Positions 20,561 through 45,392 of a stretch of DNA of 64,000 nt are shown piece after piece (positions within the stretch are counted from its first letter, which is position 1; each line of letters opens with the position of its first letter). The notes below the pieces were generated by a model. That model was not told where the DNA came from, searched no databases, and saw nothing but the letters and a program-made list of their open reading frames with translations. The DNA comes from Bryopsis sp. KO-2023 (Eukaryota > Chlorophyta > Ulvophyceae > Bryopsidales > Bryopsidaceae), in NCBI GenBank assembly GCA_030272585.1, contig BSYQ01000012.1, positions 3,100,001-3,164,000 on the forward strand, in the 5' to 3' direction. Position numbers and translations under genes: made by a program.

Positions 20561-21334
20561 CCTAAGTGATATCCGACCAAGCGTTTTACCGAGCGAAGAA
20601 CGAAGATGTACCGTGGAAGGAAGGAAAAATATCAGTTGTAAATGAAGAAAACGGAAGTGGGGGTCTGACCAAGGAATTGCAGCGGCATTGGAATTGACCA
20701 AAACTGCAATGGATGAAAAGCCGCAGCGGATATCAACAGCAGCGGACTACAGGAGAGTGTCTGACAAGAGCGAAGCTTATGGTTTCCGACTAAGTGAAAC
20801 TGCGAAGCGAGGTAGCGAGCGGAAGTTATAATCTAAGCTTGCGCGGACTTGGAGTCTTGAACGGATAAAGCATAGCGGGCATTTCTTCATGTTCGTGTGC
20901 TGAATCACGAGCAAGAAGACATTGCAAGCAATGCTTATGCCATGTTTAACCTTCTCCTTGGCGGTACTCGTGGGCGGAATCCACATCCGCACCATAGAAC
21001 CACGAGTTAGGAGAGGCTTGAGCGGGCTATTACTAAATGCCCTGATGAAGCAAGCAGACGAAGAAGCGGGCATCCGTCCAAGCAAGAGACACAAGGTTTT
21101 TGGATTTCACAGAGTATGGGATTTGTTATGCCGTTTGAAAATCATCTTGTTTGCATGATTGTGAGGTTTGTTTTCTATTTTTCTATTTTTCTTCGTGTTT
21201 TGTTCAGTGGATGGCCCTGTTTCTCTTTTTAGCGGCCAATCAAACTACTTATTCTTTATTTCTTTCGGGTTTTTCTTTCGCGATTAACTTTCTTGAGTGC
21301 TGAGGACACCACTCGGGGGGGGGGGGGGAGTAGT

Positions 21335-21564
21335 TGATACGAGGTGACGAGGTTAGTGTCTAGATGTCCCATCGGTGAGTGGGTGTGTCACTGTAGAGTA
21401 AGGGGTTAGTGTGTTGTGGACGGTACTTAAAGGGTTGTATTTTTGACATTGTGTAACCTTTGGGGCTGGGTTTGCTATTGTGTTGTGTTCCCACGTTCTA
21501 CCCTCCTCCACTTGGAGGAGGGCCCCTATCTACCCTTCCCCCTCTGGGGGAAAGGCCCCTATCA
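21335..21564 (+). repeat. Element B 3' LTR
   Basis: 230 bp, nearly identical to 12,517-12,746, preceded by a long G-run and AGTAGT that serve as polypurine tract. Near-identity of the two LTRs points to recent insertion. Confidence 0.92.
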
Positions 21565-22407
21565 GTTGCAGTCAGGCTGAGGCTGCCAGGTCATTGGAAA
21601 ATTCATAACACCTTCCATGTGTCCAAGCTGAAACCTGCTTTCGAAGATCAGGAGGGCAGCTTTCCTGACAGGGAGGCACCCAGGTGGCAACCTGAGCCTG
21701 AAATGGTGGCAGGCCAAGAGGAGTATCTGGTTGACAGGATTCTGGCAGATAGGACTGTCAGGGGCAAGAAGCAGTACCTTGTCAGGTGGCAGGGTTATGA
21801 TCAATCGGAGGACACCTGGGAACCTGCCAGAAACTTGCGAAACGCACCGGACAAGTTACGTGAGTTTGAGATAAGAAGCTGAAAGGACTAGATCAAGCAG
21901 AGGTGACAGGTTGATGTCTCTGACAGACTGAAGCAACCTCTGACAGAAACGGAAATAGGTGTGCAGTATACTGGAGTTGGAAACTGTCTAGCAAGGTACG
22001 TGCGCAGAGCAAGAAGAGAGAAAGAGGAGCCTATCGTTCGGAAAGGGAAAAAAAAAAAAAAAAGGAATCAACATGGATCAGCAACCAGCAAACCAGGCCG
22101 CCCTTATCGTCTCAACCCCCGCCAGCAGCAGTGAACCAGCAGAGGCTGCCCCTGTGGTTATCCCTGCGGCAGCGGTGGAGAAAGCCGACGTGATCAAGGG
22201 GGCAGATGAGGTTGTGGCGTTTGAGGAGGCTGTGCAGGTCCTGCGGAAGAGGGCAGTCGACGTTGCGGAGTTGGAAAGGCTGAGGAGCAAGTGTCAAAAG
22301 GTGGAGCAGGAAAAGTGGAAGCTGCAAGGGTCTCTGAGTGCTGCCGAGAGTGAGCTGAAAGCGTGGCGAGAGTGGGCGAAGAAAATGCCGGTAACGCGGT
22401 TGGATTC

Positions 22408-22581
22408 TGATACGTTGATCGCACTCATTTTGCAGTACGAGTGTGTAGTACGGGTTAGTACGGGTTCTAGGGGGTTAAGTTCAGAGAGAACACTTGTAAA
22501 ATTAATTCTCTGGTTTGTGAAAGTGTGTGACCCCAGTCTCAACTCCAGCAACGACTCACTAAAACCTACAGGGACCTAACA
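22408..22581 (+). repeat. Element C 5' LTR
   Basis: 174 bp, starts TGATACGTTGATCGC and ends GGGACCTAACA; only AAC separates it from the primer-binding site. Contains the short tandem GTACGGGTTA/GTACGGGTTC. Confidence 0.93.
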
Positions 22582-22596
22582 AACTGGTTTCGGAGC

Positions 22597-23084
22597 CGAA
22601 GCACCCTTCCTGCAAGTCGAGTCTACTTAGTGGAAGAGATCGACAGGAGATTTTGCAGTCGAGGTGCAAAAGATCAGGGTCGGCTAGGTCGAAGAAGGTT
22701 TCCCCTCGTGTCTGGAACCTACTTTGTGTTGCTGCGCACCAACCAAACGCTGGACGAAAGAGAACGCACGTTGCTGCGCTCGATCATCCCTCTCAAGATC
22801 ACAGGATCTATAGATCCTTGGACGCTACGACCACAGCACGGCGTAGTAGTACTTCCGTTTGTCGGAGAGTTGTCGACACTGAACGCGGTTACCGCAGAGC
22901 GGACAAAACGAGTCTGCCAGCGGACGTTTCTGCGGACGAATACGTTTCCGCCAGAAATTACGTGCCAGAAACCGCTGCCAGAAACCGCTGACAAAGAGTG
23001 ACCAATTAGTCACGTGGATTACCCGCCAACGGAATCCACCAAACGGACACGTGATTCTACCGCCGACGAATCAAGACATCCACC
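22597..23084 (+). other. Element C leader
   Basis: Noncoding stretch between the primer-binding site and the gag start. Several short ORFs but none convincing. It carries a few GCGGA/CCGC motifs near its end, as in the coding part. A packaging signal would be expected here; none identified. Confidence 0.5.
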
Positions 23085-26051
23085 ATGAGCGGACACGACG
23101 AGCAGCTATACCTGGAATACGGTATCGAAGACAATCAGCAAGAGCGCGACGCCCCAGATGGCCCGCCGCTATATCCGCTGATCGTCGCCCAGGAATTACC
23201 TGCTGTCGGACTGCCGATACAGGCAGAAATGGACCAGCCTTTACAGGCATACGGTGTCCCCGCGCACCCGGACATGGTGGAGGAGGCAGGCGATGAGGAA
23301 GCGGACATTGGCCCGGAGTTTGATGAGGAGATGGAAGAAGAGCCAGGAGTCTTCATCAATCAACAAACGCAGCACCTGCAACAGAGCCAAGTAAACGTGC
23401 ATAACCAGACCCTGCACGTGCACAACGATGGCCTGCAGGAGCGCGACCTCCATGAATCGCAAGAGCGGTTATACAGCCAATTGTCCGAGGAGGCTGCCCA
23501 GCGGACAGCCCAGGTCGCCGAGCACCTTGCTAGTCGGATGGAGGGAGCTTGTTCAAGCATGGCTTCCCAAGTACATGATGTGTTGGACTCTACTCTACAG
23601 TCCCGCCATCACCAGATCGAAGGACAGCTCAGTGAGAGGTTGGATGAGCGGATACAAGATCTGGATGCTGCAGCCAAGGGGAGGCTCAGCCAAATGGAAG
23701 CTGGCTTGGCGAATATCCGTGATGTCGCCCAGAAAGAGGTGGACGAAGCCAAAGAGGCTCAGCGGATATTGGCTGAACAAGTGGCTGACACGGACGAAAA
23801 AAGGAAGAAACTCGAAGAAGAGTATGACCGGCAATATAACGACGCCCTTTGGGGGTTGGATACGGTTCAACAAGAACTGAGAGAGACCCAGGCAGAAATG
23901 GATGCGGGTCAAGATAAACAGTTCAAGGAAATCGTTCGTGTTAAGTATGATCTCAAAGAGACGCAAGAAAAAGCGGAAAGTTTTCAGATACAGCATCATG
24001 CGGAAGTAGCCTATTTGTTAAAGGAGGCAGCGGCTGCGAAAGAAGCGGCGGCTAGATTACAAGCGGAAATGGAGGAGTTGAAAAGAAGTCAAAGTCGGTC
24101 GTCAAGGAGAAGCAGATCGAGAAGCTCAACAAGGAGCAGAGAACCGCGGGAAATGTTACAAGAAATGCTACAAGATCCGGAAACAGCGCAAGAGCTAAAG
24201 AAGGTGTTTGAGGATGTAGCGGACACAAAGTTCACGTCGAATTTTGAGTTTTGGCGGAAGAAAGATGCGGCAGCAGTTGCCACACAAATGGCATCCGCTG
24301 CTCAACAAACCCCTCTTGTGGCTGCTATGGCGGGAGCGGGAACCAGAACGGTGGCACAACCACCAAGCTTGGCCGAAGTACAAGTTCCATTCGGTCAACC
24401 GCCCCAAACCTCATCCGGCTTTGCCCCGGATTCGGTAGGTTTCCCGCCAATACCACCAGTATTCCCGCGGGCAAATAGACCGATTACCCGACCTGCATCA
24501 CCCCCAGTCATTATTCCTGGAGTGGGGCGAGGCAGTGCAATCAGCGGACAGGGAAATGTACCTAGGCCGATCGTGAGGCCTAGCGCTGTGTTTGGACAAA
24601 CACCAAATACAAGACCACCAGCGGTATTACAGCCAGTACAACCGCCACAGCGTACGCAGGCTTCTCCCGTGGTACAAACTGTTCCGCTGACAACTCCAAC
24701 AACCACGTCACCCGAGCCACCTAGAACATTACCCATGCCACCACCAGTTTCTCAGCCAGTGTTATCACATCCATCAATGATTTCACCACCCGGCTATTAT
24801 GCCATGGGAGCATCATACATTCGGCCTTCTATCTTAGGTCACTCCGTGAATGTATACGGAGCTCCATCATCCGGAAACCCCTATGTTGGATGGGGATCCT
24901 ATCCGCGTATTCCTCAACGCGCAGGCGGAGGAGGCGGAGGAGGCGGAGGTGGAGATGATGATGGTTCCGGTGATGGAAGTGGCGGAGGCCCATCGGACAG
25001 AAGTGGCCGTGGGTCTGCACCTGGACCACATATTGGTGGAGGAAGAGAAGGACCATCTAGGAACCCAGGAGGCGGTCCTGGAGATGGTGGTGGTGGAGGT
25101 GGCGGAGGAGGCGAACCTCCTGGTCCCCCAGGTGGGGTCCCAGATTTTATGGGCTATGCACGTCCAGAAAATCGTTTGCTTCACATTCCCAATGCGGTCA
25201 AATTCCCGATGCCGAAACCGTATACTGGCGCTGGAGATCGCTGGATTCGGGATTGGCAGGCAGAACTCACCAACTTCTGTAAAGTTTATGATTTGGATGA
25301 GTCTGTTTGGCTTAAAGTATTCCGCACAAATCTCTCTGGTTCAGCCGCCACATGGCGGAATATGCAAGAGATGCGGATTCGGGAAGGAGTTCGTCCGATG
25401 TTCCAGGACTGGGTACAACTTGTGGAAGAGTTAGCTATTGCTTTTGAACCTACAAGAATGTCCGATGTTTCGCGTAGGAAGCTGCGGAAACTTCAACAAA
25501 CGGGGACTGTTCGTTCCTACATTAACGCATTTCGGGATCTCATACTCAGAATTCCGAATATGACGGAGGAGGAGCAGTACTTGACGTTTGTTGACGGACT
25601 ACGGCCCCAGATCCGACATCAAGTTGTTACAATGGTGACAGAAGGAGTGGAAGCGGCGATAGTCACTGCCGAAAGAATCGATTCGTTGGGTAGCCAATCT
25701 CAAAACAACCGCGGACGTAGTCGCGGACGAGGGCGATGGAACTGGAATTGGAAAAACAAGCCCAAAGCTGATCAGAACCAGCAAATGCAAGGTCAGCAAC
25801 CGCAACCACCACCTCCACCCCAAGATCAAAATCAGCAAATGGGAGGAGGCAACAGAGGTGGCGGCGGCCGTGGCCGCGGAAGAGGCGGAAGACGAGGTGG
25901 CGGACGAAATCGAGGTGGTGGCGGAAGGCAGCAACAAGGCGGAGCTAGAGGCGGAGGCGCATGTTACATCTGCGGTGAAGTGGGTCATGGCTTTGGAAAA
26001 TGTCCTAAAGGCCCAACTTTTCAAAAATGGCTAAAAGATCACGCCGCATAG
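23085..26051 (+). CDS. Element C gag polyprotein (long coiled-coil N-terminus)
   Basis: 988 residues, much longer than the 300-450 usual for Ty3 gag. Residues 105-332 are heptad-rich and probably a long coiled coil. A short Arg/Ser tract follows (about 335-355), then a Pro-rich region (about 400-610) and a Gly-rich linker (about 612-682). The gag domain is at about 705-860 (PKPYTGAGDRWIRDWQAEL; WLKVFRTNLSGSAATW), then an RG/Gln-rich basic region, and a CCHC knuckle CYICGEVGHGFGKC at 960-973. It forms particles and binds the element RNA. The last 25 bp overlap the pol ORF in the -1 frame. The start is the first Met after the leader (ACCATGAGC, good context). Confidence 0.9.
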   Translation: MSGHDEQLYLEYGIEDNQQERDAPDGPPLYPLIVAQELPAVGLPIQAEMDQPLQAYGVPAHPDMVEEAGDEEADIGPEFDEEMEEEPGVFINQQTQHLQQSQVNVHNQTLHVHNDGLQERDLHESQERLYSQLSEEAAQRTAQVAEHLASRMEGACSSMASQVHDVLDSTLQSRHHQIEGQLSERLDERIQDLDAAAKGRLSQMEAGLANIRDVAQKEVDEAKEAQRILAEQVADTDEKRKKLEEEYDRQYNDALWGLDTVQQELRETQAEMDAGQDKQFKEIVRVKYDLKETQEKAESFQIQHHAEVAYLLKEAAAAKEAAARLQAEMEELKRSQSRSSRRSRSRSSTRSREPREMLQEMLQDPETAQELKKVFEDVADTKFTSNFEFWRKKDAAAVATQMASAAQQTPLVAAMAGAGTRTVAQPPSLAEVQVPFGQPPQTSSGFAPDSVGFPPIPPVFPRANRPITRPASPPVIIPGVGRGSAISGQGNVPRPIVRPSAVFGQTPNTRPPAVLQPVQPPQRTQASPVVQTVPLTTPTTTSPEPPRTLPMPPPVSQPVLSHPSMISPPGYYAMGASYIRPSILGHSVNVYGAPSSGNPYVGWGSYPRIPQRAGGGGGGGGGGDDDGSGDGSGGGPSDRSGRGSAPGPHIGGGREGPSRNPGGGPGDGGGGGGGGGEPPGPPGGVPDFMGYARPENRLLHIPNAVKFPMPKPYTGAGDRWIRDWQAELTNFCKVYDLDESVWLKVFRTNLSGSAATWRNMQEMRIREGVRPMFQDWVQLVEELAIAFEPTRMSDVSRRKLRKLQQTGTVRSYINAFRDLILRIPNMTEEEQYLTFVDGLRPQIRHQVVTMVTEGVEAAIVTAERIDSLGSQSQNNRGRSRGRGRWNWNWKNKPKADQNQQMQGQQPQPPPPPQDQNQQMGGGNRGGGGRGRGRGGRRGGGRNRGGGGRQQQGGARGGGACYICGEVGHGFGKCPKGPTFQKWLKDHAA

Positions 26052-29000
26052 AGGAGACTTCACTCCATGCGGCCAGAAGAAAAAGAGCCAGACGCCGAAG
26101 ATATAGACATCGCAGACGTCAGAAGCTCCGGGAGTCACGAGCAAGAGAACGAGAGGGGAATAAAAAGACCGAGAAAGAGTCAAAAAGAAATCCCGCCCAG
26201 AGGGCTGAAAATCCGCTGATGAGTACAAAACTTGGTGACAAAGAGCGGATGGATGATTCAAGTACGGTCATCCTAAGCACTTCCGGCAGAGAGTTGGCGG
26301 AAAGTGTTGGTTCAGTACATGAAGACTCTGGAAGTTCCTCCGGAGATAGCAACCTGGAATCTATCCCGCCTTGTGGAGAGAAACAGGCTTCGGAAGGAAG
26401 TGTAAAAAGTTTAGACCGGACCAGCCCAAGGGTTCCGTCTGACGCCGATGCAAGGGGGGCATCGGACAGAAAGAAACAACCAGGGGTTGAAGGTGGGGAT
26501 TACCTTCAAGACAGTTTTAACCCGCTGGTAAATAATCACCACCTTAAGTTCATGGGATATGAGCTTAAGGGGCGGATAGGGGGAGTTTCAATCTCCGCTT
26601 ATTTGGACTGTGGAGCTACGGAAAATTATGTAGCGCAGAAACTTGTGGATCGTTTGGGGTTAGAGTTCTCCTCGTGTAATAAGACCGTTTCATTAGCCAA
26701 CGGGTCTGTTTGCAATGTGGACAAACGATGCGGAAACATCAACATGCAGTTGGGCGGATACAAAACCCAGTTTTCTGCGGATGTTTTTCCTCATCTCACA
26801 TATGACATCGTGTTAGGGTTACCGTGGCTCATCGCCAATAACCCGTCCATAGACTTTGCACAGGGAACTATCAACATTCGCCAAGGTCAAGGTTGGATAA
26901 CAGTACCGGTAAAGGAAAGACCGACTGATTATCTTCAACTTGCGAATGAAACCACACCTCTCATCACCCACAAGAAGATATTCCGCTACATCAAGAAGCA
27001 AACTGAAGCCACAGATAGTTTGGCTGACTTGGTGGTGGTGCGTGAATCTGACCCCACGGATAGCAATCACTTGATGCAATATCCGTATGAAGGGGTAACC
27101 GTTGATAGCCTTCAAACTTCAGCGGGCACCAACACACCACAAGAGACGGAGGTACCGAAGTTGCTGCATGATCAGATGCATCCGGATATCCGCTCTGTGG
27201 TGGAGGAATATAGCCACATTTTTCCAAAAGATCTCCCACCTGGCATACCTCCCGTCCGCAAGGGTCATGAATTTAAGATCGACCTTGAGGATGAGAGTAT
27301 GAGCCCAATCCACCGTCCCCTGTACAAACTTTCTCCGGCTGAATTGGATGAAGTTCGGACACAAGTGGATTATCTCCTCGAGCAACGGAAGATTAGGCCG
27401 TCAGAGAGTCCCTGGGGAGCCCCCATACTCTTTGTCCCTAAGAAAGACGGCGGACTGCGGATGTGTGTTGATTACAGATGGATCAACCACTACACCATCA
27501 AAAACCGCTATCCACTTCCGCTCCCCGAAGAGTTAATGGACCGGCTCGCTAAAGCGAAGATCTACACCAAGATCGACCTCCGCTCGGGCTACTGGCAATT
27601 TCCAGTCCGGCCAAAGGATACCCCAAAAACTGCATTCCGCACACGATACGGGCATTTCGAGTTCCTCGTTTGTCCCTTCGGAATGTCCAACTGTCCGGCC
27701 CAGTTTCAAACTATGGTGCAGGATTTGTTGGGGGAGTTTTTGGACCACTTTGTGGTTGTGTTCATTGACGACATTCTGGTGTTTTCCAATTCAGTGGAAG
27801 AACATGTCGATCATTTGAAACAGGTATTCGAGCGGTTACACAAACACAAGCTCTACGCGAAAGCGAGCAAGTGTGAAGTGGGGGTCAGCGAGACCGATTA
27901 TCTGGGATATCATTTGTCAGGGAAAGGCCTGCAACCAATGAGTGATAAAGTGCGGGCTATTCAAGAATGGAAGGAGTTGAGCTCAGTTGGGGATGTGCGA
28001 AGTTTTCTGGGCATGGTATCTTACTATCGTAAGTTTATACCAGAGTTTGCGCGGATTGCAGGACCCTTACATGATCTGATCAAAAAGAATCATGTGTGGA
28101 CATGGGGGCCTATTCAGCGCGAAGCCTTCAGCAAACTCAAGCAAAAGATCACCCGCACCCCCATACTTCTCCTACCCGATCCGCTTCTTAGGTACACCGT
28201 AATAACGGACGCATCAGGAACTGCATATGGAGCAGTTCTGTGTCAGGACCATGGAAAGGGGCTACAGCCAATAGCCTACCTTTCAAGACGATTAAAACCA
28301 GCTGAGACACGATATTCCGCATATGAGCGGGAGCTGGGGGCTGTAGCATATGCGCTCAGCCAATGGCGGCATTACCTCGAAGGAGCGCCTGGGGAGGTTA
28401 CGGTTATGACAGACCATCAGCCGATAACCCACTTCATGACCCAAGCTAAAATGTCGCGGACACAATCCCGATGGTATACGTCAGGGTATTTTGATTCCAT
28501 CGATCCAAAAATCGTCTATGTGCCTGGTAAAGCCAATGTACTGGCGGATGCGTTATCCCGAAGCCTTCCTGATTCACAGGATCAAATTCATGCTTTGTCC
28601 GCCTGGGTGGTGGATGAAGCGGATGCATGGAAGACCGCTATTGCAGCAGATCAAAAACTGCAGGCGGAAGTCACGAAAATTCAAGCGGGTAAACCCACGA
28701 AACTTTCGTTCGAGGATGGCTGGTTGTACTATCAAGCAACTCCCACCTCAGACAAAGTACTAGTGGTTCCAAATGGATACCGGAAAAAGGTTATGGGGGA
28801 GTTCCATGATGTTCCGAGCGCTGGTCACGCAGGTGCCGCCCGGACATTGGATGTGCTACAGCGATACTACTGGTGGAAAGGAGTTGGAAAGGATGTCCAA
28901 GCATACGTGCGGACATGCCCTGTCTGTCAGCGGACAAAAGCTGATACGACGAAGCAGAAAGGGCTTCTGCATCCACTCCCAATACCGACAACAAAGTGGG

Positions 29001-30136
29001 AACAGATCACCACTGACCTCGTGACTGATTTACCAAAGTCACGTGGGTTCACCGCCATCGCGGTATTTGTTGATCGGTTAACCAAGTACGTTCGCTTCGC
29101 ACCCTGCACTAAGGAAATAACCGCCCCGGAATATGCTAAGTTGTTTGTGGACAAAATATACAAACACTATGGCCTCCCCAAAGTGATAATTTCCGATCGA
29201 GACCCCAGATTCACAAGTTCCTTCTGGCGGTCTTTATTTTCACTTCTGGGAACCCAACTCCGAATGAGCACAGCCTACCACCCACAAACAGATGGGCAGT
29301 CAGAGGTTACTATTCGGGTGTTGGAAGACTTTTTGCGGCCTTATGTGGAGCGGTATCCAGACCGCTGGGTTGATTTCTTGGCGACAGCGGAATTTGCTGC
29401 CAACAACTCCCGCAATGTGTCAACCGGCTATGCCCCAGCACACTTGTTGTATGGGCAGCATATGGGACAAATTACCGTGCAGAAAAAGTTAACGGCGAAA
29501 GAAGAGTCCGAAATGGCAACCGAAATGGTGAAACGAATGGACGAGCAACTGCAGCAGGCAAAGCAGCAGTATGCAACCGCACAAGAGCGGATGTGTGTCC
29601 AAGCGAACAAACGGCGGCGGGAAGTAATCTTCAAAGAAGGGGATGAAGTTTTGGTGCGGAGTACATTTATTCCGCTGCAATCCTTGCAAAAGATCCCACC
29701 AAAAATCCGCCGGAGGTTTGTCGGGCCATTCAAAGTGGACAAAGCGATATCCACAGTCGCTTATCGCCTGCAACTACCACCCCATTGGACTATTCATTCT
29801 ACCTTCCATGTCTCCAAGCTGAAGGCATACAACCGCTTGTCAGAAGATGATGAGCGGGAGGTGGAACCTCCCGAAGGGGAGTTGGTGGATGGCGCCATTG
29901 AATATGAGGTCGAGCGTATTCTGCGGGATCGAGGCACACCCAACCGTCGGGAGTACTTGATTCTGTGGAAGGGCTATGATTTGATGGAAGCCACCTGGGA
30001 GCCAGAAGCCCACCTGGCCAATGCCAGCGATATCTTGGCAGAGTATCTCAAAAACCGCACGCGCTTGCCGACCAAAGAGGAAATCCGCTCTAAGCGGGAA
30101 GGAAGGCGGACAAGGCGGCGGAAACAACCTCTTTAG
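26027..30136 (+). CDS. Element C pol polyprotein (protease, RT, RNase H, integrase, chromodomain)
   Basis: 1,369 residues. After a basic Arg/Lys-rich N-terminus: protease with YLDCGATENYV near 191 (Cys where Ser or Thr is usual), RT (FVPKKDGGLRMCVDYR near 469; FIDD near 579), RNase H (VITDASGTAYGAVL near 727) and integrase. Integrase has an HHCC finger (about 925-968) and catalytic residues in TTDLV, SDRDPRF and TDGQSEVT. A chromodomain sits at about 1,293-1,341 (YEVERILRDR; YLILWKGYD; TWEPEAHL). All catalytic motifs except the altered protease triplet are canonical. ATG 26,027 sits 22 bp upstream of the gag stop (AAAAATGG), so termination-reinitiation or -1 frameshifting could yield Pol. Confidence 0.93.
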   Translation: MAKRSRRIEETSLHAARRKRARRRRYRHRRRQKLRESRAREREGNKKTEKESKRNPAQRAENPLMSTKLGDKERMDDSSTVILSTSGRELAESVGSVHEDSGSSSGDSNLESIPPCGEKQASEGSVKSLDRTSPRVPSDADARGASDRKKQPGVEGGDYLQDSFNPLVNNHHLKFMGYELKGRIGGVSISAYLDCGATENYVAQKLVDRLGLEFSSCNKTVSLANGSVCNVDKRCGNINMQLGGYKTQFSADVFPHLTYDIVLGLPWLIANNPSIDFAQGTINIRQGQGWITVPVKERPTDYLQLANETTPLITHKKIFRYIKKQTEATDSLADLVVVRESDPTDSNHLMQYPYEGVTVDSLQTSAGTNTPQETEVPKLLHDQMHPDIRSVVEEYSHIFPKDLPPGIPPVRKGHEFKIDLEDESMSPIHRPLYKLSPAELDEVRTQVDYLLEQRKIRPSESPWGAPILFVPKKDGGLRMCVDYRWINHYTIKNRYPLPLPEELMDRLAKAKIYTKIDLRSGYWQFPVRPKDTPKTAFRTRYGHFEFLVCPFGMSNCPAQFQTMVQDLLGEFLDHFVVVFIDDILVFSNSVEEHVDHLKQVFERLHKHKLYAKASKCEVGVSETDYLGYHLSGKGLQPMSDKVRAIQEWKELSSVGDVRSFLGMVSYYRKFIPEFARIAGPLHDLIKKNHVWTWGPIQREAFSKLKQKITRTPILLLPDPLLRYTVITDASGTAYGAVLCQDHGKGLQPIAYLSRRLKPAETRYSAYERELGAVAYALSQWRHYLEGAPGEVTVMTDHQPITHFMTQAKMSRTQSRWYTSGYFDSIDPKIVYVPGKANVLADALSRSLPDSQDQIHALSAWVVDEADAWKTAIAADQKLQAEVTKIQAGKPTKLSFEDGWLYYQATPTSDKVLVVPNGYRKKVMGEFHDVPSAGHAGAARTLDVLQRYYWWKGVGKDVQAYVRTCPVCQRTKADTTKQKGLLHPLPIPTTKWEQITTDLVTDLPKSRGFTAIAVFVDRLTKYVRFAPCTKEITAPEYAKLFVDKIYKHYGLPKVIISDRDPRFTSSFWRSLFSLLGTQLRMSTAYHPQTDGQSEVTIRVLEDFLRPYVERYPDRWVDFLATAEFAANNSRNVSTGYAPAHLLYGQHMGQITVQKKLTAKEESEMATEMVKRMDEQLQQAKQQYATAQERMCVQANKRRREVIFKEGDEVLVRSTFIPLQSLQKIPPKIRRRFVGPFKVDKAISTVAYRLQLPPHWTIHSTFHVSKLKAYNRLSEDDEREVEPPEGELVDGAIEYEVERILRDRGTPNRREYLILWKGYDLMEATWEPEAHLANASDILAEYLKNRTRLPTKEEIRSKREGRRTRRRKQPL

Positions 30137-30459
30137 ATGATACAGGTTGATATGGGGAAGGGAACGATGGTTGATGTGTTGGTATCAGTTCACCCATAAT
30201 CAAATACATCTAAGAGCGAGCTACAGAGAGCTGAGTCAAGATAGCGAGGGTAATATCAAAGCGGAGCTAGAACCTTGGATGAGACGACACTCAATAGAGG
30301 AAGTCTTCCATCAGTGACAAGTGAGTGACTCTATCACTTGTATAAACTAGCTAGGCTGCAACCCTCCAGCCCTATTTCGTCAAAAGTTTACGCCGAGCGC
30401 ACTGAACCTTCAGAAGCAACCGCCACCAGAGCAAAACATTAAAAAGCATTTGCATAAAA
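30137..30459 (+). other. Element C spacer between pol and ORF 3a
   Basis: 323 bp without ORF or recognisable signal. If the accessory ORFs are made from a subgenomic or spliced RNA, an acceptor or promoter would be expected here; several AG acceptor-like sites exist but none stands out. Confidence 0.4.
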
Positions 30460-31305
30460 ATGTCTGGAACATCCGAGCATTTGGAGCGACTCCGTCAGCA
30501 AAGGGATGAGTGGAAAGCAAAGGCAGAGGCCTTGGAAACGGAGCTCGCGGAAGCCTTAGAATCTGGAACTGAGGCGGTGGAATCACATGCAAATGTGGCG
30601 GCGGATTACGAAAAGTTACACAAGAAGCTTCAGGAGGGTGTGACAAAAAGAGATGAGCAGGAGGCGGAAATCTGTGAGCTGGCGGCGGAACTCCGGGAAA
30701 CAAAAGAGGAAAGGGCGGCGGAAAAAACTAAGCTGGAGGCGGATTGGACAAATCGATACCGGGCTCTTCAACAGCAGTTGAGTGATGCTCAAGTGAAAGC
30801 CCGCGGTGCGGAAGCGGAACTCAAGACCATCAAAAGAGAGTTATCCGCGAAAGAGGAAGAAAATTCCGCAAAGGATCAAACCATTTCCGCGCGGAATCAA
30901 GAAATTTCCGCGAAAGCAAAGGAAATCACCCAGCTGACCACCGATCTGGCCCTCTCCCGGAAAACAGCCACCAAAGCTCAGGCGGATACCGAATGGTATC
31001 ACAAGGAAAACAAGCAGCTCATCAGCGAGGCGGAGAAACGCTACAAGCACCTCGCCACGGTCCAAAAAGAGCTGGCGGCCACAAAAGCAGCTCTCGCCAA
31101 GGCGGAAAAAGGAGACAATTTCTGCAGCAGCACGACTGCCCGCGTGTTAATGTCCGAGTTGGTGGCGTCCAAGGTTGAGGTCAGCCGGCTTCGGGCCAGC
31201 CTCATGGACATTCCGCAGTCACTCGCGAGTTTCTCACACGGACTCGTGGGAGTACGTCTGGACACCGCGAAAACACAGGCGCAGTTGGTGAGGGATGGCG
31301 GATAA
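30460..31305 (+). CDS. Element C ORF 3a: coiled-coil protein
   Basis: 281 residues, almost entirely Ala/Glu/Lys/Gln-rich heptads (residues 5-220; LRQQRDEWKAKAEALETEL, SAKEEENSAKDQTISARNQE). This predicts a long parallel coiled coil. The last 60 residues are less charged (VSRLRASLMDIPQSLASFSHG). No membrane span, signal peptide or Cys cluster. It lies after pol and 14 bp before ORF 3b, in another frame; the two may be translated together. Function unknown. The same type of sequence precedes the RING-like cluster in A2 ORF 3, where both parts are in one protein. Confidence 0.7.
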   Translation: MSGTSEHLERLRQQRDEWKAKAEALETELAEALESGTEAVESHANVAADYEKLHKKLQEGVTKRDEQEAEICELAAELRETKEERAAEKTKLEADWTNRYRALQQQLSDAQVKARGAEAELKTIKRELSAKEEENSAKDQTISARNQEISAKAKEITQLTTDLALSRKTATKAQADTEWYHKENKQLISEAEKRYKHLATVQKELAATKAALAKAEKGDNFCSSTTARVLMSELVASKVEVSRLRASLMDIPQSLASFSHGLVGVRLDTAKTQAQLVRDGG

Positions 31306-31319
31306 AAGATCAGGTCGAT

Positions 31320-32327
31320 ATGCATAAGGTCAAAGAGATAACCATCACAAACGTAGACCTTACGAAGGCGCACAATTTGGACCAAGTGAACGACTGGTTG
31401 AGCCGGATAGACGGGGCAGCGGAAAATATCTCACAGCAGTTGGCGAAACCACCCCAGAGTTCCCTTGACGATGACGACAACGAAGACGTCATAGCGGAAG
31501 AACCGACAGGTTCAAAACCACCGCTGAGCGCGGAGGACGCACAAACAAAAGCACTCGTCAAAGCAGCAATGCTCAAAGCACTTGCGGAGAAAAAGAAAGC
31601 AGCCGCGGAGAAAAAGGCGGCCGCGGAAAAACAACAGGCGGACGCGGAGAAAACACATGCGGAGAAAAAGGCGGCTGCGGAAAAACAAAAGGCGGACGCG
31701 GAGAAAACACATGCGGACGCGGGAAAACAAAAGAAGGCGGACGCGGAGAAAAAGACAACCGCTGAAACCAAGAAAGGGGAGCCGTCGACTCAGGCGGATG
31801 CGGAAAAAGTGAAGGAAGCGGACAAAAAGGGCGCGGAGAAAAGCACCAAGCGGGGGAAGAAACGCACACGCGCGAAGGACGCGAAAGAGTTGCGTGCAGC
31901 GCTCAAGAAGATCAAAGGCACGCACGATCCAGCACTCGCGGGAACGAAGTGCTATTACTGCGCGGGAACGCAACATGGTGTCGGGGTAAAAACCAGTTGT
32001 GGGGCACACTACGTTTGCCCTACACACTGGCCCCATCATCATGTAATGGATCGGGTCATCAATCGGTGGCTCGCGGATAAAAGTATCCGGCCGCTCGATA
32101 TGACCGCGGAGCATCTTCGCCTCGGGAAACGTGCGGAGGATTTCCTTCCGCTCCCATCGCTTCCATCCCCGGACACCACTGATCAGCTCACCTTACCATG
32201 TCAGGTGTGTCGGGTCAAATCCGCAGCCTTCCCCTCGAAAACCGGTGTCAAGGAGCTTGGATCCCGGCTGACATACATCCTACGAACGATGTGGGATCTC
32301 GAGGGCTTGGACTCAGAGACAGAGTGA
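31320..32327 (+). CDS. Element C ORF 3b: Lys/Ala-rich helix plus RING-like Cys/His cluster
   Basis: 335 residues. Residues 1-70 are mixed. About 80-185 consist of repeats of AEKKAAAEKQKADAEKTHA, strongly charged and helical, then a basic stretch (KRGKKRTRAKDAKEL). From about 207 comes CYYCAGTQHGVGVKTSCGAH then YVCPTHW, i.e. C-x2-C-x12-C-x2-H-x2-C-x2-H. A further CQVC pair follows about 57 residues later. The CG-x-H-x-VC core is shared with A2 ORF 3 (CGKHRVC). Spacing resembles a RING finger, with the last pair further away than usual. Possible roles: ubiquitin ligase, or a structural zinc domain. These are inferences. Confidence 0.7.
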   Translation: MHKVKEITITNVDLTKAHNLDQVNDWLSRIDGAAENISQQLAKPPQSSLDDDDNEDVIAEEPTGSKPPLSAEDAQTKALVKAAMLKALAEKKKAAAEKKAAAEKQQADAEKTHAEKKAAAEKQKADAEKTHADAGKQKKADAEKKTTAETKKGEPSTQADAEKVKEADKKGAEKSTKRGKKRTRAKDAKELRAALKKIKGTHDPALAGTKCYYCAGTQHGVGVKTSCGAHYVCPTHWPHHHVMDRVINRWLADKSIRPLDMTAEHLRLGKRAEDFLPLPSLPSPDTTDQLTLPCQVCRVKSAAFPSKTGVKELGSRLTYILRTMWDLEGLDSETE

Positions 32328-32472
32328 GAGAGCGCGGAGCCAGAGCCAGAGCGTCAGAGCCGGACAGAGACAGTTTTTCCTTGGGGGTTTTCTTTTCTTT
32401 TCTTTTCTTTTTCTTTCTTTTTGGGTTCTTCTACGGGTGTGGACACCCTTTGGGGGGGGGGGGGGGAGTAGT

Positions 32473-32646
32473 TGATACGTTGATCGCACTCATTTTGCAG
32501 TACGAGTGTGTAGTACGGGTTAGTACGGGTTCTAGGGGGTTAAGTTCAGAGAGAACACTTGTAAAATTAATTCTCTGGTTTGTGAAAGTGTGTGACCCCA
32601 GTCTCAACTCCAGCAACGACTCACTAAAACCTACAGGGACCTAACA
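32473..32646 (+). repeat. Element C 3' LTR
   Basis: 174 bp, identical by eye to 22,408-22,581. Preceded by a pyrimidine tract (32,390-32,430) and a G-run with AGTAGT (polypurine tract). Confidence 0.93.
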
Positions 32647-33183
32647 GATTCCGAAGAGGAGGTGTCCTTTGGCTTCCTGGACACAGGGCTCCCTGAACCA
32701 GAAAAACCTGCAGCAAGCCAAAAGAGTGAGATGGAGACGGCGCTGAAAGAAACGGGACGCGGCTGTTCGCTCTGCTTCAAGACGGCGCGATCTCTTGGGG
32801 CACCAGTGCGGGAGCTTCCATGTGGGAAGCACCGGGTATGCTGCAGAGACCTCTGTGTCCAGAGACTCTGGTACGCGCCAGACGTAACGGTGGAGAGAAC
32901 GAACCCAGACGGGAGCTTGGAGGTGGTTGGACGACTCAGCGAAACGCGAAAGGGGGTCTCGGTGGATGCGACGAAAGAGTGCGGGCTGTGCAAGCTGCGG
33001 GAGCACACGGTCATGGCGCCGAGGGTGCTGACGTCCTTGCGGATTGCGGTCATCAGTCCACCCCTGCCAACGCAGCCAGCCTCCCCGGGACGAACCAATT
33101 GTGACTGCGTGCCGCTTCGAGAGGTCCGCTGGAGTGTGCCCGCGCTTGCGCCAAAGAGGGGCTTGAAACGTCCGGCGACCTGA

Positions 33184-34882: not shown

Positions 34883-35727
34883 GCCATGAGCAGACGTGGG
34901 CGCCGGCAAGTTTTAAAGGACCGGACCGGACCGGAAAACCTGTCTTGGACCGGATTTGACCTTTCTTAGACAGGTCAAACCGGTCTGGAAAGGTCAAATC
35001 CGGTCTAAGAAAGGTCAAATCCGGTCTAGTAAAGAACACCTTTCTTAGACCGGATTTGACCTTTCCAGACCGGTCTGACCTGTCCAGACAGGTTGTCGCC
35101 TGTCTGGACAGGTCATACTCGTGTGACCTGTTTTAGACCGGTGTGACCCTGTTTTAGACCGGTGTGAGGCCTAGTGTGACCTGTTTTAGACCGGCTCCAG
35201 GTCGGTCTGGACAGGTGGGCTGCCTGTCCAGCAGACCTGGGCCCGACCGGACCGGCAGCGAAAAACCGGTCCGGTCCGGTCCAACCTGTCCATGGACCGG
35301 CTGACCTGTCCGGTCCTGTCCGGTCCAACGAAAAAACGCCGGTCCTTGCAAGACCGGACAGGTTGTGACCTGTCCGGTCCTGTCCACTCCGGTCCAGTCA
35401 ACCTCGGAAATCTGCAGAAATCTGGACCGGTTTTCTGACAGATTTTCCGTTTTTAGACAGGTCACACCCACATTTCGCCTTTATTAGACCGGCGATGTGA
35501 CCTGTCTAAAACCGGAACGACCCTGTCTTGACAGGGTTGTTCTCCTGTTTTAGACCGGCTCCAGGTCGGTCTGGACAGGTGGGCTGCCTGTCCAGACCGA
35601 CCTGGCGCCTGTCTAGAACAGGTCACACAATTAAGCACTTTTAGCGTGCCAATTGTGTATCAATTGACTGGGAACTGAGTTAATTAATTAAACAACAAAT
35701 AATATTGTTACATGTATTTTCATTGCA

Positions 35728-36072
35728 TGAATGACGTGAGCCAAGCTCACCAGCCACCGACTGGAGGGAGTCGGTCGACTCTGGGAGGACTCGAACTCGG
35801 GTTGGCTAAGTCCGAGTCGAGAGCACTACAAGGTAGCGGACCCCACCATAGGGACGCTCATAAGGGGTCCGCTACCTTTAAGTACCTACTTTTTGTAATG
35901 GAAAATAACGGGTACTTAAAGGTAGCGGACCCAATTTGAGCGTCCCTATGGTGGGGTCCGCTACCTTGTAGTGCTCTCGACTCGGACTTAGCCAACCCGA
36001 GTTCGAGTCCTCCTAGAGTCGACCGACTCCCTCCAGTCGGTGGCTGGTGAGCTTGGCTCACGTTATTCATCC
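35728..36072. repeat. Inner hairpin with GGTAGCGGACCC core (first copy)
   Basis: About 130-bp arms (35,730-35,860 and 35,938-36,068) surround a loop that is itself a hairpin (GGTAGCGGACCC...GGGTCCGCTACC). Each arm contains GAGTTCGAGTCC on one strand, like a Pol III B box. A second inverted copy of the whole unit lies at about 36,660-37,010. Confidence 0.75.
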
Positions 36073-36659
36073 ACTAAAAATATATATAATAGTATTACTT
36101 GGTGCTTTAATTAATTCAATCACTTCCCAACTGATTGATTCCCAGTTATGTGCTTAATTGTGCGACCTGTTCTAGACAGGCTCCAGGTCGGTCTGGACAG
36201 GCAGCCCACCTGTCCAGACCGACCTGGAGCCGGTCTAAAACAGGTCACACTAGGCCTCACACCGGTCTAAAACAGGGTCACACCGGTCTAAAACAGGTCA
36301 CACGAGTATGACCTGTCCAGACAGGCGACAACCTGTCTGGACAGGTCAGACCGGTCTGGAAAGGTCAAATCCGGTCTAAGAAAGGTGTTCTTTACTAGAC
36401 CGGATTTGACCTTTCTTAGACCGGATTTGACCTTTCCAGACCGGTTTGACCTGTCTAAGAAAGGTCAAATCCGGTCCAAGACAGGTTTTCCGGTCCGGTC
36501 CGGTCCTTTAAAACTTGCCGGCGCCCACGTCTGCTGTCCAGACCGACCTGGAGCCTGTCTAGAACAGGTCGCACAATTAAGCACATAACTGGGAATCAAT
36601 CAGTTGGGAAGTGATTGAATTAATTAAAGCACCAAGTAATACTATTATATATATTTTTA

Positions 36660-37010
36660 GTGGATGAATAACGTGAGCCAAGCTCACCAGCCACCGACTG
36701 GAGGGAGTCGGTCGACTTTGGGAGGACTCGAACTCGGGTTGGCTAAGTCCGAGTCGAGAGCACTACAAGGTAGCGGACCCCACCATAGGGACGCTCAAAT
36801 TGGGTCCGCTACCTTTAAGTATCCGTTATTTTCCATTACAAAAAGTAGGTACTTAAAGGTAGCGGACCCCTTATGAGCGTCCCTATGGTGGGGTCCGCTA
36901 CCTTGTAGTGCTCTCGACTCGGACTTAGCCAACCCGAGTTCGAGTCCTCCCAGAGTCGACCGACTCCCTCCAGTCGGTGGCTGGTGAGCTTGGCTCACGT
37001 CATTCATGCA
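36660..37010. repeat. Inner hairpin with GGTAGCGGACCC core (second copy)
   Basis: Reverse-complement copy of 35,728-36,072 with a few base differences (for example GACTTTGGG against GACTCTAGG). Same arm and loop layout. Confidence 0.75.
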
Positions 37011-37689
37011 ATGAAAATACATGTAACAATATTATTTGTTGTTTAATTAATTAACTCAGTTCCCAGTCAATTGATACACAATTGGCACGCTAAAAGTGCT
37101 TAATTGTGTGACCTGTTCTAGACAGGCGCCAGGTCGGTCTAAAACAGGAGAACAACCCTGTCAAGACAGGGTCGTTCCGGTTTTAGACAGGTCACATCGC
37201 CGGTCTAATAAAGGCGAAATGTGGGTGTGACCTGTCTAAAAACGGAAAATCTGTCAGAAAACCGGTCCAGATTTCTGCAGATTTCCGAGGTTGACTGGAC
37301 CGGAGTGGACAGGACCGGACAGGTCACAACCTGTCCGGTCTTGCAAGGACCGGCGTTTTTTCGTTGGACCGGACAGGACCGGACAGGTCAGCCGGTCCAT
37401 GGACAGGTTGGACCGGACCGGACCGGTTTTTCGCTGCCGGTCCGGTCGGGCCCAGGTCTGGCCATGAGGGCAGCAAAACGAGCCCAAGGGCTCTAACAAG
37501 GATGGGAAATTGGCAGCCACAGCTCGCGAGCCCTGGAGTTCAGCAGTGAGCAGCATCAGAAGCTCTAAACCATAGGCTGTGTACATATATCGATCAATAA
37601 AAAAAATAAAAATAAGAACAAATTGTCATTGTTATTTTTTTAAAGTCCTTTTTGATATCATATCCTACCACAAAACACGCGTAGGATTC

Positions 37690-40722: not shown

Positions 40723-40872
40723 TGTCAGAATTGATGGGAAGGTAGCTCGTGATTGATTAGAAGGAGTCATTTCATAGAATTAGAACATGGGATAGATCGA
40801 ACATGGTTGTGGTTAAAAGAACGGAGGTACCTTGATTCGATGTAAGCAGCTGTTTACTTCACGTTCTTGACA
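40723..40872 (+). repeat. Element D 5' LTR
   Basis: 150 bp, TGTCAGAATT...GTTCTTGACA. Its last base is the A of the gag start codon. Confidence 0.93.
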
Positions 40873-42119
40873 TGGTTTCGGAGCTTGGGAAAACGAAGTT
40901 TTCAACCTGGACAAGGGAAGTAGCTGAATGGGCTATTCCGTATGCTGGGTGTGGAGGGATTTCTTTTGAGGAGAAATCGTATGCGTTACTGCGATTAGCG
41001 GTCCCAGGAAGCCCAGCATGTCGGCTGTTTGCGAACAGAATCGAAAGGGTCCAAACGCAAGGACTGGAATTGAATTTTATTAACGGGAAATATGCGGGAG
41101 AAGATGCCACGGAGTTTACGGTGTTCGCTAATCCTTTGAGTGCGGTTGGAGCCGCTGAAGCATGGATTATTTTGGTCGCTGAGTTACGGGCGGCGCTTCC
41201 TACAGACCTGGCGTCAGATGAGCAAAAGCTGCGCAGGGAGAAAATGCGACCTAAGGAGAAACTGGAGCATTTCACGACTCGTTTTTGTCAGGCAGCAGAT
41301 CAAATGGACAAACTCGCAGAAACGGTGAAGTGCAGTATTTTATATTCGCATCTCCCGAAGTCAGCACAGGAACTCGTGCGTTCATTGCCTAAGTCTTCGA
41401 CTACTCTTAAGGCAATGCTGGAGCGTTTGCATGAGAGCCTTGCGTGGGATTCTGGAGGAGGAGCTGTTGGTTCCGCCGCGGACCCGATGGAAATTGATAC
41501 AGTTAATGTGCAGAGTGTTATCCAGGGCGAACGGGTCGAGTTTTCCGCTATTAAAACGATGCAGGATTTTCGTATGGCTTCACGCCATTTGGCCCGTAGG
41601 AATCAGGGCTATCGCAATTTTTTACAGGATGTGTTACGTGACGGAGCTCGTGGGACTCAGCGCCAGGGTCGTTTTCAGAATCGGCCATGGCAGAGGCCTA
41701 AGAATTATCGCCAAGGTCAACCAGAAAGGGAGAAAATTTTTAATATCGATGTTCCAGTTTTCGAAGATGCTTTGTTTGGAGGAGATGTTGAGACGAATCA
41801 GGGGGACACCGAGGAGCAAGCCCAGGGGGTTGACACTGTAAAAATGACCAGTTCGGGTTCGCTATTGTTTTGCCCTGCCGTGGTTAACGCACAGGTCACG
41901 TGCAATGGGCTTATTGATACAGGTGCTGGAGTTTCTTTGATTTCGGCGAAGATTGCGAAGTTGGCCGGTGCTGTCCCTCAACCTACGGAGCGCGTTTTGC
42001 GCTGCGCTAATCAGTCGGCGTTGACTTGTTTGGGTACCGCTCAGGTGACGCTCACTATTGGACAAACATCTCTTCAGCAATGGGTTTTTGTTTGTCCCGA
42101 CTTGGGTTACGAGTCGTAA
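40872..42119 (+). CDS. Element D gag-protease ORF
   Basis: 415 residues. Start ATG (40,872) uses the last LTR base plus TG of the primer-binding site, giving MVSELGK. A gag-like helical domain occupies about 40-230 (DEQKLRREKMRPKEKLEHFTTRFCQAADQMDKL). A basic Arg/Gln region is near 255-295 (RQGRFQNRPWQRPKNYRQG), but no CCHC knuckle is present. From about 335 comes an aspartic protease (LIDTGAGVSLISAK). The ORF ends within the protease; its missing end (TYDMILGNDVLSEL) is found in the pol ORF, in the -1 frame. So Gag-Pro-Pol probably needs a -1 frameshift in the 42,026-42,119 overlap. Confidence 0.88.
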   Translation: MVSELGKTKFSTWTREVAEWAIPYAGCGGISFEEKSYALLRLAVPGSPACRLFANRIERVQTQGLELNFINGKYAGEDATEFTVFANPLSAVGAAEAWIILVAELRAALPTDLASDEQKLRREKMRPKEKLEHFTTRFCQAADQMDKLAETVKCSILYSHLPKSAQELVRSLPKSSTTLKAMLERLHESLAWDSGGGAVGSAADPMEIDTVNVQSVIQGERVEFSAIKTMQDFRMASRHLARRNQGYRNFLQDVLRDGARGTQRQGRFQNRPWQRPKNYRQGQPEREKIFNIDVPVFEDALFGGDVETNQGDTEEQAQGVDTVKMTSSGSLLFCPAVVNAQVTCNGLIDTGAGVSLISAKIAKLAGAVPQPTERVLRCANQSALTCLGTAQVTLTIGQTSLQQWVFVCPDLGYES

Positions 42120-45100
42120 CTTACGACATGATTTTGGGGAACGACGTTCTTAGTGAGCTCAAGGCCAAGCCCAATCCCGCGCATCGGGTTTTAGAACTTC
42201 CTCGTCAACCAGCCGTTCAATGTTTGGCCGTCGCTCCTGATTCGGTTGATGATCAAGGGGTTGTTTGGCGTTTAACGGCTGCTGAACCCTTGCCAGTGCA
42301 GCCAGTGGTTAAGGATGGGGTGTTGTTCTGTGCCTTGGGGTCCTCTCGGGTTATTGCTGCCCAATCCACCCTTACTGTGGTACTCCCTATTGTACCCTCG
42401 ACCTCGGTGGCATTTTTTGATTCTGGACGTTTGCCAGCGGGTGTATCGGCATCTTCGGCCATTTGGATGCGCGGCCACTCTCTGCGAGTTACTCTTACTA
42501 ATGCCACAGCTACGCCGGTTATGTTGGGAAGTCGGACAGCGATTGCTGGGGTTTTGTTGGCGGCAACGACAGTGGAGTTGAAGCAAGCGGATGGGATTGT
42601 TCGTACTCTCGCCACTTATTCCCCTCCCACCACTCCCGCTACTATGGTTGCTAATGTTCGGCCCTGTGCTGCGGATTTACCCTCACAATTTCCGGCCTTG
42701 TTTGCGTCGACAGTGGGCTCGTTCAAACCTGAGGTCATCGAGGAATTGCCTTTTGTTTCGACTCCTAGCACGCTTGCACCCCCCCAACCTCCCCTGGTGG
42801 GTCAGGAGTTTCTTGCTGCTCAGCAACAGATCACTACCTGGACCAAGCAAGGCGTTCTGCGGCCGGTTTCCTGGACCCCTCGGGTAATGGCCCCTTTTTT
42901 TATGGTTCCCAAACCTCATTCCTCTGCGTTGCGTATGGTCGTGGATTTTCGTTTGCTTAACGCCTCAGTGCGTCAAGTATTTTCTCCAGGCTTGCATCGC
43001 CATGCCTTGGTTCGTACCTTAGGGCAAAAGAAATTTTTTTCTACTCTGGATGTGTCGTCGGCGTTCACTTGTATTCGCCTGCATCCGTCGTTGCATAAGT
43101 TTTTTGGGATTTGTTTCTACCACCAATTTTTCGTTTTTACTCGGTTGCCCTTTGGGTTTCATAATTCAATGCATTGGTTTTTGCGGGCAATTCAATATTC
43201 TCTCAGCCGTGTTCGTTCTCGGTTACGAAAAGAGGTCCCGGATGCGGAATTATCGGGGTATGTTGATGATCTTTGTTTGGGGTCGGATTCTATTGAGTCC
43301 CACCGTCGCGCGTTGCTTATTCTTTGTGAAGAGCTTCAGCGCGATGGTTGGGTGCTTAATTTTGCGAAGTGTTCGTTTTTTCAGAATGAGGTCTGTTTCG
43401 TGGGGGTTCGTTTTTCCGCCCAGGGTGTTTGTTTGGATCCTTCGGTGATTACTAAGGTCGCTCAATTTCAGCGCCCGGTTTCCCGCTTGCAGTTGCGGAG
43501 TTTTTTCGGTTTATGTTTGGGGCTGATTCCTTTCAACCCCAATGTGTCGGCGGTTCTTGCTCGCCTGCGTGCTTATTGTCAGGCCCCTCCAGATCGGTTC
43601 TCTACGCCGGAGTTTTGTCGAGATTGGGATACCGTGGTCACTCGACTTACGTCTGCCCTTTGGCGATTGCATTATTGGCAGCCACATTCCGACGAGCCCT
43701 TGCGTCTGTACGTTGACAGTTCGTCTTTGGCTCATGGTGCTCTTTTGGTGCAAGGTCAGCGACTGGTGGCTATGTGGAGTGCCTATAATACTCAGCCCTT
43801 TCGCTCCTCCAATTTTTCGGAACTGCGAGGGTTTTGCAGAGCGGTAACGGCCCTTCGCGCCTTTTTGATTAACCAGAAATTCGATATCTATACTGATAAT
43901 CGAACGGTGGTGGCGATGTTTTCGGCTACGTCTTCCACCGATTTTATACGTCGCCAATTGGCTCAGGTGCAAGATCTTTTTGTGTACCCTTTGCGTGTGC
44001 ACCATATTGCCGGCCAGGAGAATTTTTTGGCCGACTTATTATCTCGTCAACGTTATCTCGTTGAGCGTTCGGAGGTTTGCCCTGTGGAAGCTGGAAATCA
44101 GGAGTTGTGCTTGAAAAAGGAATTGGAAAAGGAAGAGCAATGGAAAGGGTTTTTGCAGGCAGCTCAGTTGTGCTACAAGCATCAGCTGGTTTGGAAAAAT
44201 GGAATGTTGCAGAAATGGATGGATTCAGATTATAAGGTGGTGATTCCGCGCAGTATGGTCAAGACGGTTTTGGAGACGTGTCACGATAAAGCTGGGCACT
44301 TTGGTGTCGAGAAAACCTTGGAGAGGATGCGTCGATCTTTTTTTTGGACAGATATGCGAAAGGATGCAGAGGCACACTGCCGTACTTGTGACACGTGCCA
44401 GCGGTTTGGAAAACTGAGGAAGACTGCCTCCAGCTTGTCGATTCCTACAGATCGTCCTATGCAAGTGGTGGCGGTGGATTTTGTGGGACCCCTGGATATT
44501 AGTGGCGTGCACAAATACATTTTGGTAGGTGTAAACTTCTTTTCGCGCTGGGTTGAAGCGAAACCAGTGTCCAGTGCGACCAGCGATCAGCTCGTTCATT
44601 TTGTGGAAGCTTGGAGACATAAGTGGGGCCGTATTGAGTCGCTGATGGGCGATAATGGAGGAGCGTTTGGCAGTTCGTATTTCGCCAAATATCTGGCCGA
44701 GAAAAAAATTGAAAAGGTAGAGATCAGTTCGTACTCGCCAAAATCAAATGGTAGAGTAGAAAGAGCGAATCAGACGCTCGTGCATCGACTGCAGCGCATG
44801 TGTTGGAAAGATAAATCGAGGTGGTCGGAATTCGTAACTGAGGCAGTTGAGCTGATGAGAGATTCGCGTTCAAGTGTTTTGGGGTTTTCGCCCCGAGAAA
44901 TTTTATTGGGTCAAAATGCACAGGGAAAGAAAGTGGATATTTTGGAAATTAGGAGAAAGGTTCGTGACCTTGAAAAGCAAATAGGAGAAAAGCAAGTTGC
45001 AGAATTGGATCCCCAGAAGTTTTTGGAAAAGGAAATTGTGATTGGGGGTTTGGTTTTGGTTAGAAATAACTTTGGCGATGGTGTGCATGGTCAGAAGTTT

Positions 45101-45235: not shown

Positions 45236-45242
45236 GGAAGCG

Positions 45243-45392
45243 TGTCAGAATTGATGGGAAGGTAGCTCGTGATTGATTAGAAGGAGTCATTTCATAGAAT
45301 TAGAACATGGGATAGATCGAACATGGTTGTGGTTAAAAGAACGGAGGTACCTTGATTCGATGTAAGCAGCTGTTTACTTCACGTTCTTGACA
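45243..45392 (+). repeat. Element D 3' LTR
   Basis: 150 bp, matches 40,723-40,872. It begins 8 bp after the pol stop codon; AGGGAAGCG is the short polypurine tract. Confidence 0.93.

Follow-up and report, generated by a model that had tools for sequence, protein, structure and literature searches.

A third open reading frame with a RING-like Cys/His module in chromodomain Ty3 retrotransposons of the alga Bryopsis sp. KO-2023

Long terminal repeat (LTR) retrotransposons are usually held to need gag and pol only. We analyzed a 64,000-nucleotide stretch of the genome of the green alga Bryopsis sp. KO-2023 (assembly GCA_030272585.1, contig BSYQ01000012.1, positions 3,100,001 to 3,164,000 of the forward strand; hereafter the window), in which two Ty3 retrotransposons, element C and an A-family element (A2), carry after pol a third open reading frame (ORF), here called ORF3, that combines an N-terminal coiled-coil part with a C-terminal zinc-type module. 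In this one genome at least nine Ty3 families retain ORF3 by purifying selection and seem to swap it among themselves, and a gene that is both kept and exchanged behaves as viral accessory genes do. The Bryopsidales are described as single giant cells with millions of nuclei (PMC4487195), and in such a giant-celled alga the conflict between element and host becomes directly testable.

Third genes have been reported behind pol in several other retroelements. CERV of Cer1, a Ty3/Gypsy element of C. elegans, is required for export of the genomic RNA and, like ORF3, is a third ORF after pol that has no envelope features and diverges across species (PMC10309623). A potential leucine zipper and a possible zinc finger add to the resemblance, which is one of layout alone: in the available text CERV has a possible C4 finger and belongs to one described element, whereas the Bryopsis proteins share an eight-ligand Cys/His module in 13 families. 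Varied third ORFs after pol, common to diverse retroelements, are known from LTR retrotransposons of bdelloid rotifers, and one type is named CC, for coiled coil; the types are env-like, GDSL, DEDDy, CC and TM, and RING and zinc finger are absent from the text that could be accessed (PMC5408684). Published additional ORFs discussed as ENV-like match ORF3 in position, in orientation and in being present in all or most copies, but the accessible part of that account mentions no zinc finger, RING or alga, and the Bryopsis ORF3 is without a membrane segment. A Ty3/Gypsy lineage of Phalaenopsis likewise holds an extra conserved domain in an additional ORF, of AlkB type (PMC9289625); according to the available text this domain is a clear relative of plant RNA demethylases with demonstrated activity, whereas the ORF3 module is an orphan. 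Across open PMC titles and abstract openings, with subscription papers and preprints outside that scope, we found no RING-like third ORF in Ty3 elements and no Bryopsis retrotransposons.

ORF3 in the window and across the genome

Element C is inserted in ORF3 of A2. Its LTRs begin with TG and end with CA, and paired LTRs with a short target duplication are present, a check that covered the window copy of C only. The chromodomain occupies residues 1293-1342 at the C-terminal end of its pol (Pfam). The preliminary description of the window had placed ORFs with Cys/His motifs after the pol chromodomain of both elements, and the ORF list, Pfam and alignments confirmed it; the cluster reads C-x2-C-x12-CGAHYVC...CQVC in element C and C-x2-C-x15-CGKHRVC...CGLC in the A type. 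Its distinction between one ORF in A and two in C is true of the window copy but did not hold for the family: ORFs 3a and 3b are fused in one frame, as a single ORF of 622-627 codons, in 25 of the 30 C loci examined, which are the 30 best genome matches. The window copy, one of the five loci without a single ORF3, was judged from the ORF list; the copy-survey entry L003 is the A module.

The description of two such elements, both of them real, also proved too narrow. Single-protein searches of the genome (91.1 Mb, 28 contigs) revealed 13 sequence families with the module (A, A', A'', A''', A'''', C, D, E, F, G, H, I and J), the modules being 14-35% identical to the reference row of their alignment (n = 13). 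These searches score the best candidates only, so that the counts are minima and decayed relics are under-represented. The ORF from the first ATG has 280-630 codons in 10 of the 13 families; H, I and J are known from modules only, with 29 genome matches for H (L102) and 7 for I (L103). Only eight columns are invariant over the 13 modules (C, C, C, H, C, W, C, C): one Trp and each of the eight presumed ligands except the sixth, which is His in C, D and E and Cys in the other 10. One Pro is nearly invariant. Because this pattern recurs in 13 divergent families, with seven of the ligands and the Trp as the only invariant columns, chance origin is excluded. The coiled coil proposed for both elements was borne out as well: the heptad contrast of the N-terminal parts was matched by 0-4 of 100 shuffles in all 10 families analyzed (0/100 for element C), and the ORF3s of C, A and E gave weak matches to coiled-coil or long-helix families.

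A chromodomain-type pol end, recognized by similarity to C or A pol, lies directly upstream of ORF3 in eight families (A, A', A'', A''', A'''', C, D and E), and family J is the ninth with pol (pol match at C4:1120796-1121383, module at C4:1122084-1122440). One A''''-type query gave 150 pol 3' ends, of which 142 are accompanied, among the matches listed, by a same-strand module at a distance of 1.1-1.9 kb, measured from where the pol match begins; a module on the opposite strand was found for none of them, and one upstream for two. ORF3 is found on the strand of pol, 3' of it and in most copies, the traits of the aORF-3S class (additional sense ORFs that lie between pol and the 3' LTR), and it is a genuine accessory gene of the Bryopsis chromodomain Ty3 elements. 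For families F and G, the 1.6 kb upstream contains nothing that matches pol of C or A. Members of the two are found paired at five sites, with a spacing of ~14 kb at four of them and ~24 kb at the fifth, and nothing in the interval between them matches gag, pol or ORF3 of C. They may have been domesticated, may be non-autonomous or may belong to some other large element.

Some further observations concern the distribution of these elements. Repeats lie in one F-G interval together with an ORF that resembles a coiled coil. Clusters of C elements and C LTRs are found at 4.96-5.01 Mb on contig C1, 4.30-4.40 Mb on C5 and 4.51-4.74 Mb on C6, perhaps guided by the chromodomain or in pericentromeric positions. 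Gag ends 52-55% identical to C gag lie at C4:2733793, C12:2339714, C11:3291877 and C14:1790369 in frames of more than 2000 codons, perhaps from families with gag and pol in one frame.

The possibility, raised beforehand, that ORF3 would be broken or missing in most copies was not borne out. Stops are absent from 42 of the 44 C-family matches spanning at least 300 of 335 residues, from 62/62 A-family matches (at least 169 of 173 residues, at least 86% identity) and from 62/62 E-family matches spanning at least 179 of 180 residues. Relics of ORF3 that carry stops do exist in the genome; all eight A-query matches with stops sit on contig C2, as if decayed A relics gathered there. Pooled within-family ratios of nonsynonymous to synonymous differences per site (pN/pS), computed from pairs that are not independent, are 0.25 for A (module 0.17), 0.32 for A', 0.17 for C, 0.16 for D, 0.18 for E and 0.26 for A'''', and 0.44 for F and G together (module 0.23). 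The samples were 12 of 35 A loci, 9 of 30 C loci, and all of the 5 A', 3 D, 3 E, 3 A'''' and 4 F/G loci; L073, L074 and L077, with no ORF containing the pattern, were excluded from the copy survey. Where a copy set has more than two variable sites (seven sets), 0.47-0.70 of them fall in third codon positions. ORF3 is under purifying selection, for which the preliminary description had proposed to look: the range of 0.16-0.32 in six families demonstrates it and is not the ratio near 1 that would have spoken against the gene, and selection that maintains it probably means a real job for the protein.

Divergence of ORF3 against gag and pol

Families C and D are close in gag and pol and distant in ORF3. 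Of 20 D copies, 11 could be paired with a gag-end match at most 8 kb upstream, and in these the last 253 gag residues are 95-98% identical to those of the window C; none was found among the matches listed for the other nine. Because the gag upstream of the first D locus belongs to another element, identity was taken from gag-end matches paired with D loci. Pol of C and D is 92% identical over 533 residues (pS 0.39; estimated synonymous divergence, dS, 0.55), whereas their ORF3s are 40% identical (pS 0.81). Where C and D have the same residue (Met and Trp left aside), the codon differs at 132 of 470 positions (28%) in pol and at 142 of 216 (66%) in ORF3, and at 43 of 60 within the module. Nucleotide identity between the two is 0.79 at 30201-30300, 0.64 at 30301-30400 and 0.43 at 30401-30500, with the start of ORF3 at 30460. 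A and A' repeat the pattern, with 83% identity and pS 0.47 in pol against 39% and pS 0.81 in ORF3, and different codons at 94 of 310 and 59 of 85 identical residues, respectively.

An ORF3 with a history older than that of the adjoining pol is best read as the outcome of cassette exchange. As C and D have close gag and pol, and ORF3s of 40% identity with saturated silent sites, the gene was probably passed between families as a cassette, with recombination a short way 5' of the start codon; such joints could have arisen, for example, when reverse transcription switched templates among RNAs packaged together. An alternative without exchange, namely very fast adaptive evolution of ORF3 in place as the source of the steep C-D and A-A' divergence, appears unlikely to us. 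Genes in conflict with the host can evolve quickly, and ORF3 is far more diverged than pol in every between-family comparison made, but fast adaptive change alone would not saturate silent sites: another codon is used at 66-72% of identical residues in ORF3 and at 25-30% in the adjoining pol, and pN/pS within families is low.

The Cys/His module and the possible role of ORF3

Fairly confident AlphaFold models of the module from a close A copy (mean predicted local distance difference test score, pLDDT, 79.3; predicted template modelling score, pTM, 0.73; input 10 sequences) and from C (mean pLDDT 82.8, pTM 0.79; input 11 sequences) both contain two short strands around ligands 3-5 followed by a helix, the order found in RING domains (beta-beta-alpha). 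With its ligand order C, C, C, H, C, C/H, C, C and this predicted core the module is like a RING finger domain; it is unlike one in having 40-57 residues before ligand 7 (40-43 in the A-type families, F and G; 53-57 in C, D and E), together with four residues between ligands 5 and 6 in the former group or His as ligand 6 in the latter. Two features of RINGs serve in E2 contact, namely a side chain ahead of the second Cys that is hydrophobic or aromatic and a helical Trp; RINGs also have a Pro after the seventh ligand. In the modules the first of these is present in 12 of 13 and the Trp of the predicted helix in 13 of 13, and the Pro in 1 of 13.

We propose that the ORF3 protein would self-associate through its coiled coil and that its RING-like zinc module would form a protein-docking head engaging a host factor, so that the protein might serve as an accessory factor or antagonist rather than an envelope. 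The C-D mosaic favors such an outward, host-facing role over a tight fit to the element's own Gag. Taken as a whole, the combination of accessory gene, cassette exchange and coiled-coil oligomer with a host-docking zinc head stands, in our estimation, evenly poised between right and wrong.

Several results weigh against it. Eight of the 150 pol 3' ends have no module downstream among the matches listed. An alignment of the A-type with the C-type module profile spans 78 columns and pairs up the Cys ligands, but the match is weak (E 0.0055, probability 6.6%, and 2.3% with full-length profiles); common descent of the two is likely, not proven. Clusters of K[KR]x[KR], resembling nuclear localization signals, precede the module in C, D and E and are found nowhere in the ORF3s of the five A-type families. 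The strict RING spacing, C-x2-C-x(9-39)-C-x(1-3)-H-x(2-3)-C-x2-C-x(4-48)-C-x2-C, is matched by none of 10 families even with His permitted at ligands 5 and 6, and none of the 13 modules reaches the cut-off of the curated Pfam RING models. RING-named Pfam matches occur in three modules (best E 0.0025, 0.053 and 2.1), all below cut-off; the strongest, XB3-XBAT31, scores 18.2 bits (E 0.0025) where the cut-off is 50. No module match above noise was found in Pfam or the Protein Data Bank (PDB), Foldseek returned nothing at E <= 0.001 from the PDB for the A and C models or from a viral library for the A model, and re-examination of its results with VIA-align gave no convincing match, some of the weak viral-library rows for the A model (E > 1) being RING proteins. 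The module is accordingly called RING-like and not RING. For the RING-like cluster of the preliminary description, the predicted beta-beta-alpha order speaks in favor, and the strict spacing, the Pfam cut-offs and the fold searches gave no support.

Searches for protein relatives gave a single one, BSKO_12552 (P0001), from the same alga, and none outside Bryopsis sp. KO-2023; one of them scored only the 7992 candidates with the most words in common, another used a 93-residue query whose length range left full-length relatives out, and genomes of other ulvophytes were not part of the search. The gene model of BSKO_12552 joins pieces that match A-type pol and ORF3, and it looks like a chimeric model, an annotation artefact over an element. 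As this only relative comes from the same alga, the module is an orphan and a new zinc-domain family is on offer.

Our leading specific guess, a tentative one, is that the protein is a ubiquitin-pathway adaptor of RING type acting on host restriction or silencing. That ORF3 is a true RING E3 ubiquitin ligase, marking host silencing or restriction factors for degradation, is possible but on balance improbable. The order of the ligands and of strands and helix, the two E2-contact features, the weak Pfam matches and the weak RING rows of the viral fold library would all fit a ligase, whereas the failure of the strict spacing in every family examined, the near absence of the Pro after ligand 7 and the lack of any match above cut-off speak against it. 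A wider proposal, that many chromodomain Ty3 families of this siphonous alga carry a superfamily of coiled-coil, RING-related ubiquitin-pathway proteins swapped as a counter-defence cassette, we regard as doubtful; if true, the trading of ORF3 would resemble that of accessory genes among viruses.

Genomic-RNA export, as by CERV of Cer1, is our second guess after the ubiquitin pathway. ORF3 would then be a nuclear, self-assembling, Cys-rich exporter of unspliced genomic RNA, a role that the shared layout and the K[KR]x[KR] clusters of C, D and E would suit and that we think doubtful, as the A-type families have no such clusters and a protein tied to the RNA of one family would be hard to reconcile with the exchange of ORF3. 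Still less probable is a part in the structure or assembly of the particle, with Gag or genomic RNA as the binding partner: the coiled coils are there and a zinc-type module could bind RNA, but gag ends 95-98% identical in C and D beside ORF3s of 40% identity argue against a tight fit to Gag. An envelope-like protein can practically be dismissed, since none of 10 families has a membrane-like segment (the best 19-residue Kyte-Doolittle means are 0.66-1.39, the usual transmembrane threshold being 1.6).

Feature coordinates and other content of the window

Table 1. Coordinates of element C, of the A-family remnants and of the F/G loci (positions in the window unless a contig is named)
Feature	Position	Strand	Basis or remark
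Element C, chromodomain Ty3	22408-32646	+	
5' LTR, element C	22408..22581	+	174/174 identical to 3' LTR
3' LTR, element C	32473..32646	+	174 bp, identical to 5' LTR
Target-site duplication GATTC	left 22403..22407, right 32647-32651	+	5 bp, read from flanks
gag, element C, 988 aa	23085..26051	+	Pfam Retrotrans_gag, E 2e-14
pol, element C, 1369 aa	26027..30136	+	Pfam RVT_1, RNase H, Integrase_H2C2, rve, Chromo; protease match too
ORF 3a, element C: coiled-coil N-terminal part of the split ORF3	30460..31305	+	ORF list
ORF 3b, element C: Lys/Ala-rich stretch and C-terminal zinc-type module	31320..32327	+	ORF list, genome matches
C-type module core, presumed ligands 1-8	31950..32210	+	alignments, AlphaFold
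pol 3' end of the A-family element (A2), chromodomain-like sequence	21460..21882	+	ORF list; matches pol ends before ORF3 at other A-type loci
A-family ORF3, N-terminal coiled-coil part, interrupted by C	22073..22407	+	weak coiled-coil family matches
A-family ORF3, C-terminal part	32652..33183	+	ORF list; 62 genome matches
A-type module core, presumed ligands 1-8	32764..32991	+	alignments; AlphaFold of close A copy
F/G loci L071, L072, L085, L086, L098, L099	C4:2016400-2032200 and similar on C4, C7, C13, C15		

The A-family material of the window represents either two broken copies or one rearranged copy, as a 239-bp stretch of A-family pol occurs twice (12511-12749 and 21329-21567) with 98% identity. 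Another LTR retroelement lies at 40723-45392, where identical 150-bp repeats flank gag-like and pol-like ORFs, and a large nested palindrome, with arms of up to 607 bases at 100% identity, occupies 34889-37460. On the minus strand, ORFs at 463-3345 are presumably those of a hAT-like transposase, and on the plus strand an ORF at 55962-56831 is one that we take to be ARC6-like, of plastid division, both recognized by eye.
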